A stretch of DNA of 64,000 nt from positions 62,001 to 126,000 of the forward strand of contig PFFG01000009.1 of the NCBI GenBank assembly GCA_002783265.1, written 5' to 3'. The notes under the pieces are model-generated. The model saw only the letters and a program-made list of their open reading frames with translations. It was not told where the DNA came from and ran no database searches. This stretch comes from Candidatus Gracilibacteria bacterium CG17_big_fil_post_rev_8_21_14_2_50_48_13 (GTDB lineage: Bacteria; Patescibacteriota; Gracilibacteria; 1-14-2-50-48-13). Shown here one piece after another: positions 51,170 through 56,173 of the stretch (its first letter is position 1; each line of letters begins with the position of its first letter). A program made the translations under genes and the position numbers.

Positions 51170-52549
51170 TCAATGATTTTCCAGCGTTTCAAAAAGCACT
51201 TTGGACAAATCGCCGACAAATCCAACGGGAATAATTTTGACTCCAGGCACATTTTTCAGAGACTTCGTACTGCTGGCAGTGATAATCATACGCTTCATAC
51301 CCATGCGCTGTGCTTCCTTCAATCGTTTCTCCATATGTGCCACACTCCGTACTTCGCCCGTTAAACCCACTTCCCCTACAAGCACCGTCCCTTCTGGGAT
51401 GGGTTTGCCGAGTCGACTCGAGACTATGCTGGCGATGAGGGCTAGGTCGAGAGCAGTTTCACGTATTTTCAATCCCCCCACCACATTGACGTAAACATCA
51501 TGACTATCCATGGTGGTTTTCATAAAACGACTGAGCACCGCAAGCAACATCTCGAGTCGCCGCGGATCACACCCCACTGCCGTACGCTTGGGGTATCCAA
51601 ATTTTGTCGCCGCGGCCAGGGACTGTACTTCGAGTAGAAAAGACCGGGAACCTTCCATGGTGGCTGTCAGCACAGAACCGGGCGCGCCAGAACGTCTCCC
51701 TGTGAGAAAGATAGCGGAGGGGTTTTCAACGGGAATAAGTCCCTCTCCTGACATGGCAAACACGCCAACTTCGTCCGTTGGTCCGAATCGGTTTTTTTCC
51801 GTACGCAAGAGACGTAGTTCTCCTCCTCGCTCTCCCTCGAGCACCGCGACGGTATCGACAAGATGTTCCAACGCCTTTGGACCGGCAATACCACCATCTT
51901 TTGTAACATGACCAATAATAAACACCGTCACGCCCTCGTTTTTTGCTACATCCACCAAAAGTTCTGTCACAAGGCGAATTTGCTGAATACTCCCGGGTGT
52001 ATTACCCAGAACCGAACTAAACATGACCTGAATCGAATCAATGAAGACAATATCTGGTTTATGTTCGCGAATTGTTGCCACCACATCCTCAATCACAGAT
52101 TCGTGCATTAAGAGAATATTTCCTTCAATGCCCAAACGAGACGCCCGCCCACCAATCTGCGCTAAGGATTCTTCACCTGTGACATACAAAACCTGTTTCC
52201 CAAGAGTTGTGAGGGCTTTACATAACATGAGTGTGAGCGTCGATTTCCCAATGCCAGGTTCACCAGCCAAAAGGGTAACGCTGTGTTCTGTAATGCCATC
52301 ACCAAAGACACGATCGAGTTCTGCAATACTCGTGCGAATTTTTTCCATGGTGTGATCACGCGATGCCTGCACACCCTCAAGAGTATGCATATCCCGCACC
52401 GTGCCGCCTACTGCCTTTTTTCCACCTGGCATCATGACCTTACTACTCGCGGCTCGTTGCTCAGATAGGGTGCTCCATTCACGACAAGACACGCATTGCC
52501 CCGCCCACTTGGGCGTCTCATATCCACACGCGGTACAAATATAGGCCAT
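51170..52549 (-). CDS. radA: DNA repair protein RadA (Sms)
   Basis: 459 residues. Ring-shaped ATPase that extends recombination D-loops; also used in natural transformation. N-terminal C4 zinc finger (Cys5, Cys8, Cys19, Cys22), RecA-like core with Walker A GEPGIGKST (96-104) and Walker B DIVFIDSIQVM, the RadA-specific EKNRFG motif, and the C-terminal Lon-like domain (VGEVGLTGEVRSVAHMEKRLKEA). All expected motifs intact. Confidence 0.97.
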   Translation of the reverse strand: MAYICTACGYETPKWAGQCVSCREWSTLSEQRAASSKVMMPGGKKAVGGTVRDMHTLEGVQASRDHTMEKIRTSIAELDRVFGDGITEHSVTLLAGEPGIGKSTLTLMLCKALTTLGKQVLYVTGEESLAQIGGRASRLGIEGNILLMHESVIEDVVATIREHKPDIVFIDSIQVMFSSVLGNTPGSIQQIRLVTELLVDVAKNEGVTVFIIGHVTKDGGIAGPKALEHLVDTVAVLEGERGGELRLLRTEKNRFGPTDEVGVFAMSGEGLIPVENPSAIFLTGRRSGAPGSVLTATMEGSRSFLLEVQSLAAATKFGYPKRTAVGCDPRRLEMLLAVLSRFMKTTMDSHDVYVNVVGGLKIRETALDLALIASIVSSRLGKPIPEGTVLVGEVGLTGEVRSVAHMEKRLKEAQRMGMKRMIITASSTKSLKNVPGVKIIPVGFVGDLSKVLFETLENH

Positions 52550-52571: not shown

Positions 52572-53387
52572 CTATATCTTGCCCTGCTCTTTGATCCCAA
52601 GCAACATTGCCTTTGCTTTTTCGTTGTAGGGTTCGTTGTACAGAATTGCATCTAAATACTTTGTCGCCATCATGAGAGCATCTACCTGCATATATGCTTC
52701 CACCAGAGCAAACATATACTCCGTATTTTTTGAATCATATCGAAGTGCCTGTTCATAGGCCTCAATTGCTTCTCGGGTTGCACCGGTCTTTCCATACATT
52801 TGTGCCAAAGTTGCATGACGTGCCGCATTGTGAGGATCCCGCTTTAACGCTTCACTATAGGCACGAAGAGCCATTTCTGTACGATTTTGGTCTTCCAGTA
52901 CCCGTCCAAGACCGCTAAATATTGCCGGATCTTGATTACCCTCTTCAATGAGGTGGACATATATACTTTCTGCTTTACTGAGCTTGTCTTGCTTTCTATA
53001 GACATACGCAAGAGTCGTATTGACATCTTCGTCATCAGGGTTCAAGGCAAGAGCTTCAATACAGATACGCTCCACTTCCTCAAAATCTTCTTCGTCTAAG
53101 GCTTTTTCGGCCTTGCGCAGCAACTGCTGCACTTTTACGTGGTCATCAGGCGTGACTATCACTTCTTCACGGGTAGAAATCTTTTCCTCCTCCACCTCCG
53201 CCGTTTCCGTCATACGCAGAACATCCTGAACACGGCCATGCACATAGCCAATAATATCCATGGCATTTTTTTGCAAAGACCGTATTTTCCCCTTCTCTTT
53301 TTGCATAAACGCGAGGGAGGTCACAAGACCACCCATCGCGAGAACCTGAGTACCGACCAACAACTTCACCACAAGAGCGGTGTCCAT
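52572..53387 (-). CDS. Membrane-anchored TPR protein
   Basis: 271 residues. One N-terminal membrane helix (about 7-28), a charged linker, then at least four tetratricopeptide repeats from about residue 95, e.g. AEKALDEEDFEEVERICIEALALNPDDEDVNTTLAYVY and ATREAIEAYEQALRYDSKNTEYMFALVEAYM. TPRs are protein-interaction scaffolds; no partner is evident. It lies between the HisRS-like gene (23-nt gap) and radA (22-nt gap), probably one transcript. Confidence 0.85.
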   Translation of the reverse strand: MDTALVVKLLVGTQVLAMGGLVTSLAFMQKEKGKIRSLQKNAMDIIGYVHGRVQDVLRMTETAEVEEEKISTREEVIVTPDDHVKVQQLLRKAEKALDEEDFEEVERICIEALALNPDDEDVNTTLAYVYRKQDKLSKAESIYVHLIEEGNQDPAIFSGLGRVLEDQNRTEMALRAYSEALKRDPHNAARHATLAQMYGKTGATREAIEAYEQALRYDSKNTEYMFALVEAYMQVDALMMATKYLDAILYNEPYNEKAKAMLLGIKEQGKI

Positions 53388-53410: not shown

Positions 53411-54748
53411 TTACCCTTCGTCTGAATCTGATGCGTCCTCAATCATTGCCCGAAAATCTTTCGTGTCAAGAAGGGATGGATCGAGTAACTCCACCATACG
53501 ATCCACAACACCTTCAAAGGGCAGCGTTTCCTGTGTTCCCTTCTTCATGTCGCGCATAATGATTTTCTTTTCCACGACTTCCATTTGTCCAAGCACCAGC
53601 GCGTACTCTACTTCAAACTTACTCGCACTCTCGAGCTGTGAACGTATACTCGCCTTTCCAAGAGCTCCCATTGTACGAATGCCTCGTGCTCGAAGATCGG
53701 ATACAAGACGAAGTGCCATTTTTTTCGCGCTATCTCCAAGCTGCACCACAAAAATACTGACCTTGTCTTTTGAGGGTACCGCAAGCTGTACACGGCGCAT
53801 TGCTGTTGCAACGGCATCCATGTCGGCACTAAAGGTGAGAGCAGGTGTTTTCACACCGCCAAATTCCTCTACGAGATCGTCATAGCGACCGCCGCATCCA
53901 AGGATAGTTTCCTGACCCTCATGCTCTATATAAAATTCAAAATACAACCGGCGATAGTAATCAAGACCACCAAACAGTTTGTCATCGATTACCGCCTCAA
54001 TGCCGAGGACGTCCAAATATTCCTGAACTTTTGCAAAATGCTCCTTTGATTCCTTATCAAGACTTGATGCAATAGACGGAGCAATCTGCACCAAAATCTG
54101 CGTGTCTTCGTTTTTGGACGTGAGTACATGCAGCGGATTCACTGCAAGCTTTGAGACATCATCTTCTCCAAGATTGCGTTCTTTCCCAGCAAAAAAGTTA
54201 CGCAGATCTTCACGGTATTTATCCTGCGCATTGCGCGTTCCAATATTATTCAGGCGGAGTTTTACGTTCAGCCCCAAATCAGAGAAAATCTTTGCAGACA
54301 TCTCGATAAGCTGTGCATCCAGTGCGGGGTCTTCTTCACCGAGAATTTCAAATCCAAAGGTATGTTTTTCCGACAATACTCCCTCTGCCTCCCTTTCTGG
54401 AAGTGCTCGCTGCCAGTTTTGATCGATATAGTAAAACTCGACAGGCTGAGGCTTTTCATGAAGATTATGCTCAACGTAGGCTCGGGCCATAGATGCTGCA
54501 TATTCGGGCCTGAGAGCAAACACGCCCTCCTCATTCACCATTTTGTACAACGCATGGGAAACTAAATCGGAGGCTTCACCCAAAGCAGTTTTAAGAAGCT
54601 CAAAATCAGACAAGGCCGGCAAAGAAATACGCCGAAAACCTGATCTTCTTGCGTGGTACCTCACAACTTTTTTAATAAAAGTAAAGTACTCGTGATCGCT
54701 GCTCAGTATGTCCCTCATCCCTGAGACGTGGGGAAATTTAGTATCCAT
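53411..54748 (-). CDS. Histidyl-tRNA synthetase-like protein with lost catalytic motifs
   Basis: 445 residues that align along the whole length of HisRS (VSGMRDILSSD, ALRPEYAASMARAYVEH, DPALDAQLIEM, RLNNIGTRNAQDKYREDL, GLDYYRRLYFEF, GCGGRYDDLVEEFGG, C-terminal anticodon-binding-like domain about 328-425). Key catalytic elements are absent: motif 2 FRxE, which binds ATP, is replaced around NWQRALPERE (111-120); the second catalytic Arg of RGLDYY is Gly260 (FGGLDYY); motif 3 GLERL reads ADMDAVA (308-314). The His-binding Glu of RPE (Glu82) remains. By comparison with HisZ and GCN2-type relatives, this looks like a non-catalytic paralogue rather than the working enzyme; a divergent active HisRS cannot be excluded. 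First gene of a leftward unit with a good promoter. Confidence 0.85.
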   Translation of the reverse strand: MDTKFPHVSGMRDILSSDHEYFTFIKKVVRYHARRSGFRRISLPALSDFELLKTALGEASDLVSHALYKMVNEEGVFALRPEYAASMARAYVEHNLHEKPQPVEFYYIDQNWQRALPEREAEGVLSEKHTFGFEILGEEDPALDAQLIEMSAKIFSDLGLNVKLRLNNIGTRNAQDKYREDLRNFFAGKERNLGEDDVSKLAVNPLHVLTSKNEDTQILVQIAPSIASSLDKESKEHFAKVQEYLDVLGIEAVIDDKLFGGLDYYRRLYFEFYIEHEGQETILGCGGRYDDLVEEFGGVKTPALTFSADMDAVATAMRRVQLAVPSKDKVSIFVVQLGDSAKKMALRLVSDLRARGIRTMGALGKASIRSQLESASKFEVEYALVLGQMEVVEKKIIMRDMKKGTQETLPFEGVVDRMVELLDPSLLDTKDFRAMIEDASDSDEG

Positions 54749-54788
54749 AGAAGTTCGACTGTAGAAACGAAAGTATTACACAAAAAAT

Positions 54789-54816
54789 ACTATACCCTTC
54801 TCGAAATAAATTGCAA
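54789..54816 (-). promoter_or_regulatory. Promoter of the HisRS-like unit
   Basis: Minus strand: -35 TTGCAA (54811-54816), a 16-nt spacer and -10 TATAGT (54789-54794), giving a leader of about 35 nt. Confidence 0.6.
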
Positions 54817-54853
54817 CCTCGGCATTTGTTATCTACCAGCGAAACAGAGGTTA

Positions 54854-54862
54854 TGGTATACT
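54854..54862 (+). promoter_or_regulatory. Extended -10 promoter of the MgtC/DUF4010 gene
   Basis: TGGTATACT (TGnTATACT, -10 at 54857-54862), about 27 nt before the ATG. No -35 box is apparent. Confidence 0.5.
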
Positions 54863-54889
54863 TTGTCGAAAGATTTTCTTTTTGCCTCC

Positions 54890-56173
54890 ATGCTACTGAC
54901 CACCGTTTTACAGTTTTTGTCTGCTCTTGCTCTCTCAGCCCTTATTGGTGCTGAACGCGAACTCAATGGTTTCAAAGATAAACCGAAGGATCAAAAAGAA
55001 AAACAATTTGGCGGTATCCGTACCCATATGATTCTTGGACTCCTCGGCGGTCTTGGTGTTTACCTATCACAAATCTACGAGAATCAGTACATGCTGCTCG
55101 CCATTGGCATTGCCGTCTTCTTGCTGCTGCTTGTGCATTATGTCCACAAAGCATTTGTGACCAATAATATAGGCCTCACGACGACTCTCACGGGTATGAC
55201 GACCTTTCTCATCGGCAGCCTCTGTCTTGCGGAGCATGGGCAATTAGCAGTTATTGTGACTATTGCCACGACGGTTATTCTTCTCTCCAAGCGGTATACC
55301 CACGCGCTTCTCGATCACATCGACCACAAGGAGCTTATGGACACGCTGAAATTTGCAGCAATTCTGTTTGTTATACTCCCACTTCTGCCTCAAACGGCAA
55401 TTGACCCCTGGGGCATGATTGTGCCGCAAAAAATCTGGCAGGTTGTGGTGCTTATTTCTGGAATCAGCTACCTCGGATATATTTTCAGTAAAATTTTTGG
55501 CGCGAAAAAGGGCATTCTTTTTGCAGGAATCCTTGGAGGACTCGCATCATCAACGGCGGTGACCTCCTCCATGGCACAGCAAAGTACCCTTGAGAAAAAA
55601 CATGTCAGCCCTTTTGTCATGGCAACCATTATTGCCTCCTGTATGATGTTTTTTCGCGTTGTCTTTTGGGTCATGAGCTTTAATCAGGAGCTCACGTGGA
55701 GTTTACTACCACCGGTTGTTGCCATGAGCGTCACCAGCGCCCTTATTGTTGGTTTTCTGGTTATGCGCAGTAAGCAAAAAGGACGTGATATGAACGAACC
55801 CGCTGAGGAGGTAGAGCTCAGCAGCCCGTTTCAAATTGGCCCTGCGTTGAAATTTGCACTCTTTTTTCTCCTGATTTCTGTTCTCTCCGAAGTTGCTTCA
55901 CACTATATGGGTGCCCAAGGTGTGTATCTCATCAGTTTTATTTCAGGTCTAGCCGATGTTGATGCCATTACCGTAACGCTCTCCTCACAGGCACTAAACA
56001 ATCAGATTTCCCCTGAAGTTGCCTCAACGGGAATCATCATTGCCATGATGGTCAACACCGCAGTAAAAGTAGGCATTGCAAAAATATTTGGCGGGAAACG
56101 ATTCGGCCGAGTGATTATTGTAAGCTTTAGCCTCATTCTACTTTCTGGCGGCGTAACGCTTCTTCTCCTTTAA
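54890..56173 (+). CDS. MgtC/SapB family membrane protein with DUF4010
   Basis: 427 residues from the ATG at 54890; a longer in-frame reading is rejected because it overlaps hisS and its promoter. About eleven membrane helices. The N-terminal MgtC part has ALSALIGAERELNGF and FGGIRTHMILGLLGGLGVY; the C-terminal DUF4010 part has GGLASSTAVTSSMAQQS and ISGLADVDAITVTLSSQ. Family members are linked to Mg2+ homeostasis or transport, with the mechanism unclear. Ends 4 nt inside the convergent smpB gene. Confidence 0.88.
   Translation: MLLTTVLQFLSALALSALIGAERELNGFKDKPKDQKEKQFGGIRTHMILGLLGGLGVYLSQIYENQYMLLAIGIAVFLLLLVHYVHKAFVTNNIGLTTTLTGMTTFLIGSLCLAEHGQLAVIVTIATTVILLSKRYTHALLDHIDHKELMDTLKFAAILFVILPLLPQTAIDPWGMIVPQKIWQVVVLISGISYLGYIFSKIFGAKKGILFAGILGGLASSTAVTSSMAQQSTLEKKHVSPFVMATIIASCMMFFRVVFWVMSFNQELTWSLLPPVVAMSVTSALIVGFLVMRSKQKGRDMNEPAEEVELSSPFQIGPALKFALFFLLISVLSEVASHYMGAQGVYLISFISGLADVDAITVTLSSQALNNQISPEVASTGIIIAMMVNTAVKVGIAKIFGGKRFGRVIIVSFSLILLSGGVTLLLL

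Follow-up and report, generated by a model that had tools for sequence, protein, structure and literature searches.

The window, as we call the whole 64,000-nucleotide stretch of DNA analysed here, carries a HisRS-like gene on its minus strand (54748-53411, 445 amino acids); the ORF listing holds no open frame on the plus strand at 53411-54748. The product combines a homologue of the catalytic domain, with a degenerate active site (residues 10-320, positions 53789-54721, minus strand), and an anticodon-binding domain (ABD; residues 328-425, positions 53474-53767, minus strand). In a Pfam scan these parts appear as tRNA-synt_His (residues 10-313) and HGTP_anticodon (residues 332-420), and a PDB sequence search puts E. 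coli HisRS first (E ~1e-59; alignment across residues 7-417). The original prediction of a protein alignable to HisRS over its full length, with an anticodon-binding-like C-terminal domain, is borne out by Pfam and by this alignment; the NCBI models and Foldseek likewise place HisRS homology across both the catalytic domain and the ABD. With 313.7 bits, the protein exceeds the cut-off (286.75) of the NCBI hisS model, TIGR00442, so that automatic annotation would call it a working enzyme. On the HisZ model (TIGR00443), it scores 109.3 bits, below the cut-off of 271.65. An AlphaFold model based on a four-sequence alignment has a mean pLDDT of 67.8, with low values at residues 41-82 and 109-127, and its top Foldseek matches are HisRS structures, 4rdx first. 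The predicted structure supports a HisRS fold and nothing beyond.

The gene was proposed to lead a unit with a TPR protein and radA, and it does come first in a same-strand run. The gene for the TPR protein (52572-53387, minus strand; ORF listing and Pfam scan) follows after a gap of 23 bp, and a radA-like gene, named from its sequence (51170-52549, minus strand), after another 22 bp. Next in the ORF listing are a small lipoprotein-like ORF and pheS. Comparison of orthologue neighbourhoods placed the TPR and radA genes near no orthologue of the HisRS-like gene. Their presence therefore tells little about function, and a function by association with them was ruled out. As for the other flank, an ORF for an MgtC/DUF4010 membrane protein runs divergently (54728-56173, plus strand). 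In its longest form, this ORF shares 21 bases with the beginning of the HisRS-like gene, and its true start probably lies further downstream.

Catalytic residues and a second HisRS

Taking E. coli HisRS as the reference, motif 2 (FRHERPQKGRYRQ) has become WQRALPEREAEGVLSEK in the window protein, with three more residues, R113 replaced by Gln and R121 by Val; the replaced segment NWQRALPERE spans residues 111-120 (54389-54418, minus strand). Gly260 (codon at 53969-53971, minus strand) stands where RGLDYY has the catalytic Arg259. Motif 3 is degenerate (TFSADMDAVATA, residues 305-316, positions 53801-53836, minus strand), GLER being replaced by DMDA with D309 and A312 in place of G308 and R311, and Q127 is replaced by Thr. 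Retained are E83 (E82 in the window protein), E131, Y263, Y264 and Y288. The original prediction had described an FRxE motif replaced by a segment around NWQRALPERE with about three extra residues, Gly260 for the RGLDYY arginine, ADMDAVA for GLERL, and the persistence of Glu82 and of the GLDYY tyrosines, all of which the alignment confirms. The protein is thus devoid of the motif 2 Arg, Arg259 and the motif 3 Arg of functional HisRS. Since 36 intact orthologues keep the lost catalytic positions at 95-100%, the loss is not chance variation.

A search of the genome for a second hisS had been recommended along with the prediction, and there is one. A profile search of the genome (1.28 Mb, 11 contigs, 97% complete) returned two PF13393 proteins, the window protein and another HisRS on contig C6 (L001:1159-2454, minus strand; relatives in L038-L043). 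The C6 enzyme has WRYERPQRGRLRE as motif 2 and RGFDYY, and its motif 3 (GIAMGDVTAY) is without the class II arginine: GIAMGDVTAYNF. Its sequence group provides the sole full-length HisRS found in G041, a genome in one contig, and in G057. It is therefore presumably functional, probably working with a different motif 3, and presumably does the aminoacylation in the window genome. Its grouping with the second HisRS of G022 and of G306 and G377, two genomes outside the class, indicates horizontal spread. Contamination was ruled out (GC 0.476 versus 0.48; both genes on one contig in G022, G353, G364 and G421). Altered tRNA-His identity was ruled out as the cause as well, as the only tRNA-His found in the genome is canonical, with genomically encoded G-1 and C73.

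Repeated degeneration of the native HisRS

We examined 60 genomes of the same class, which we take to be GTDB class Gracilibacteria; of these, 53 match the window protein, a few only via their other HisRS; TGA is read as sense in several families of this class. The set of native-type orthologues comprises 53 proteins, including the window protein and three from named records (Candidatus Peregrinibacteria, Peribacteria). As for whether related genomes share the losses, a check recommended along with the original prediction, the catalytic residues persist in 36 of these proteins; 13 are degenerate and four partly altered (RPLDYY-like, R121 to Thr). The native copy is intact in 30/30 sampled genomes that have the native type only. 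A second HisRS accompanies every one of the 17 altered copies (13 degenerate, four partly so); G032 and the genome of L035 show it as fragments only. Six intact native copies also co-occur with a second HisRS. The association between altered state and second HisRS has a Fisher p of 3e-9, a test that ignores relatedness; about two phylogenetically independent pairs are informative, which are concordant and too few for significance.

Genomes of family f10 (G009, G021, G031, G041, G049 and G057) and G005 have foreign-type HisRS only. The native type was not found in them, which indicates that complete loss of the native gene occurs as well. Two other genomes have unusual gene sets. G042 carries two adjoining foreign-type HisRS genes (L088) and a dead native copy elsewhere, hence three HisRS-like genes. 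G416 harbours an extremely divergent native-type homologue without catalytic motifs (L250; branch length 2.5) and, elsewhere, a canonical foreign-type copy.

Mapped on a tree of 85 native-type proteins, degeneration requires six changes, at least four of which are forced by well-supported branches. As regain of a lost active site is implausible, we read these changes as separate losses, and sequence comparison indicates that dead copies arose at least four times, also outside the class. In family f14, intact G033 and G058 cluster with dead G042, G023, G050 and G013; other clear cases are provided by family f6 and, outside the class, by a clade that comprises families f71, f46, f86, f60 and f102. 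In this tree, the window protein falls with families f13 and f5 on long branches (support 83-90), and its loss may be shared with theirs or be its own. Dead copies of the clade outside the class lie within a lepB-hisS-HIT-rpsU-yqeY-ftsA-ftsZ cluster, in the same order as around intact G312 and G370, and the f14 dead copies, like the intact ones of G058 and G033, adjoin PAP2 and murG genes (we read these gene names from the sequences). From the shared loci we conclude that the resident gene was demoted and that the dead copy is not a duplicate. Gene neighbours vary from one dead lineage to another.

Constraint on the anticodon-binding domain

Columns conserved in at least 95% of intact copies number 95, 80 of them in the catalytic part and 15 in the ABD. 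The window protein keeps 54/80 and 15/15, respectively. All altered copies keep 12-15 of the 15 ABD columns, and most of the lost columns belong to the active site. Among intact pairs of the class, ABD identity minus catalytic-domain identity averages -6.3 points (sd 6.4, 630 pairs), and it is -6.8 points in other classes (190 pairs). Within dead families, constraint has shifted to the ABD, whose pairwise identity is 14-37 points higher than that of the catalytic domain (+17 to +34 in f71, +14 to +37 in f46, +23 to +32 in f14, +16 to +26 in f5 and +20 in f13). The partly altered family f6 is intermediate, at about +2 to +15, and the window protein compared with intact relatives has an ABD excess of +8.4.

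In f71 and f46, dN is about 0.2, whereas dS is saturated or exceeds 1.7; dN amounts to 0.05-0.16 in the ABD versus 0.21-0.32 in the catalytic part. Purifying selection acts on these genes, with its focus on the ABD. As for the window gene, a single sequence without a close relative, its place in this pattern points to purifying selection. Two ABD residues, E390 and R399, are invariant across dead groups. They may match anticodon-contact positions in related synthetases; a look-up of ThrRS anticodon residues for comparison found nothing. Within the conserved ABD stretch, Q371, A375, G387 and E390 are columns common to all HisRS. K26, K27, R34, D215, I218, K327 and D328 (window-protein numbering), which sit on the N-terminal helix and the ABD, are specific to the class: its intact and dead copies both retain them, and they are rare in other classes.

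Possible roles of the HisRS-like protein

Lost catalytic residues, a kept fold, a separate synthetase and selection, the latter measured in related dead families, are the marks of a synthetase-derived pseudoenzyme, and they support assigning the window protein to this kind. The reading that we cautiously favour, as being somewhat probable, is that of a synthetase that was displaced and now serves, without catalysis, as the scaffold for a function that depends on the ABD and is probably the binding of RNA (tRNA-His). The window gene would be the vertically inherited HisRS of the lineage, from which the second, horizontally spread HisRS of contig C6 would have taken over aminoacylation. The original HisRS would then have lost its catalytic residues and persisted under selection as a folded protein, probably a dimer, without catalytic activity. 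The C-terminal ABD would now do the work, most likely through contact with an RNA (tRNA-His or an anticodon-like RNA), on a scaffold formed by the catalytic domain. Residue loss and continuing constraint are observed; absence of activity, dimerisation, RNA binding, target and physiological role are what we infer. tRNA sensing by the window protein is possible given that the ABD is its constrained part. ABD conservation is only suggestive of GCN2-like tRNA binding, and it could equally mark a protein contact. The favoured reading is also weakened by the six genomes in which both copies are intact, by the lineages from which the native gene has gone and by the small number of independent contrasts. 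It is plausible, if somewhat less likely than not, that an ancient second function of the ABD, and not aminoacylation, keeps the native HisRS gene of Patescibacteria after takeover by a foreign HisRS; dead HisRS genes would then evolve in parallel repeatedly, and the intact HisRS of this group would be bifunctional too.

The ABD and its scaffold might instead be kept for a moonlighting protein-protein contact and not for RNA binding, a situation comparable to that of the synthetase-like accessory subunit of mitochondrial DNA polymerase. The class-specific residues retained by intact and dead copies alike would fit such a contact. However, constraint is strongest in the anticodon-binding fold itself, the four columns common to all HisRS among it, and the dead lineages have differing gene neighbours, so that we regard this explanation as rather unlikely. 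We give very little credence to a functionless remnant of a disappearing gene: the long terminal branch of the window protein and the complete loss of the native gene in some lineages are compatible with decay, but the frame is open over its full length, every conserved ABD position is kept, and related dead families span many genera under strong purifying selection.

A HisZ-like regulator of HisG, or a sensor of free histidine, would account for the histidine-pocket residues that remain in the window protein (E82, E134, Y264, Y265 and Y289), and a dead HisRS paralogue is already known in HisZ (PMC9437257). Nevertheless, HisG was found neither in the window genome, at 97% completeness, nor in most relatives with dead copies, the ABD is present, and the HisZ score is weak (109 bits versus 314 for hisS). 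The HisZ analogy of the original prediction is thus not supported, and a HisZ role is unlikely, given that no HisG was found and that the ABD is kept. Histidine sensing fares no better as a shared role, as E83, Q127, E131, Y264 and Y288 (E. coli numbering) are lost in most other dead copies, several of them remaining in the window protein; we consider this whole reading highly improbable. Just as doubtful is that the protein is still an active, if divergent, HisRS or that it serves the second HisRS as a dedicated subunit. The window protein does exceed the hisS cut-off and the C6 enzyme has no motif 3 Arg, but the window protein has lost motif 2 along with R259 and the arginine of motif 3, and enzymes of the C6 type account for every full-length HisRS found in G041 and G057. 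Moreover, the second HisRS enzymes fall into deeply separate groups and differ within one dead family (G306 and G377 versus G421; G013, G023 and G050 versus G042), which argues against a dedicated partner.

The displaced synthetase that we favour resembles bacterial HisRS (TIGR00442) in descent, fold, full-length domain order, ABD and hisS score, and its orthologues are the sole HisRS in related genomes; it differs by the absence of motif 2, the catalytic Arg259 and the motif 3 Arg and by the second HisRS in its genome. Synthetase-derived pseudoenzymes are already known as a kind, with HisZ, SLIMP and GCN2 as examples (PMC9437257, PMC4335047). HisZ (TIGR00443), the regulatory subunit of ATP phosphoribosyltransferase, is likewise a dead HisRS paralogue, but it pairs with HisG and usually has no ABD, the conserved part of the window protein. 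The HisRS-like domain of GCN2, which senses uncharged tRNA (PMC4335047), shares the dead HisRS fold; GCN2 is eukaryotic and kinase-fused, whereas the window protein is free-standing, bacterial and without an effector domain. SLIMP, a SerRS paralogue, is similarly retained without canonical activity (PMC9437257). SLIMP-like proteins are described as duplicates, unlike the resident gene at an ancestral locus that was repeatedly demoted here after takeover by a foreign enzyme. RNA binding of the kind proposed has precedents in this tRNA-sensing GCN2 domain and in yeast synthetases, which are reported to bind mRNA at a putative anticodon mimic (PMC6542539). In the open-access literature searched, of partial coverage and hence weak evidence of absence, we came across no account of a native HisRS that was displaced and survives as a pseudoenzyme, or of HisRS in Patescibacteria/Gracilibacteria.

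The dead copies amount to a replicated natural experiment that separates synthetase catalysis from other roles: once catalysis has passed to another enzyme, the remaining constraint marks the other role. The residues and domain named here thereby become testable in minimal-genome bacteria. The case also calls for caution with annotations, as genes annotated as hisS can be non-catalytic and the window gene passes a curated cut-off.
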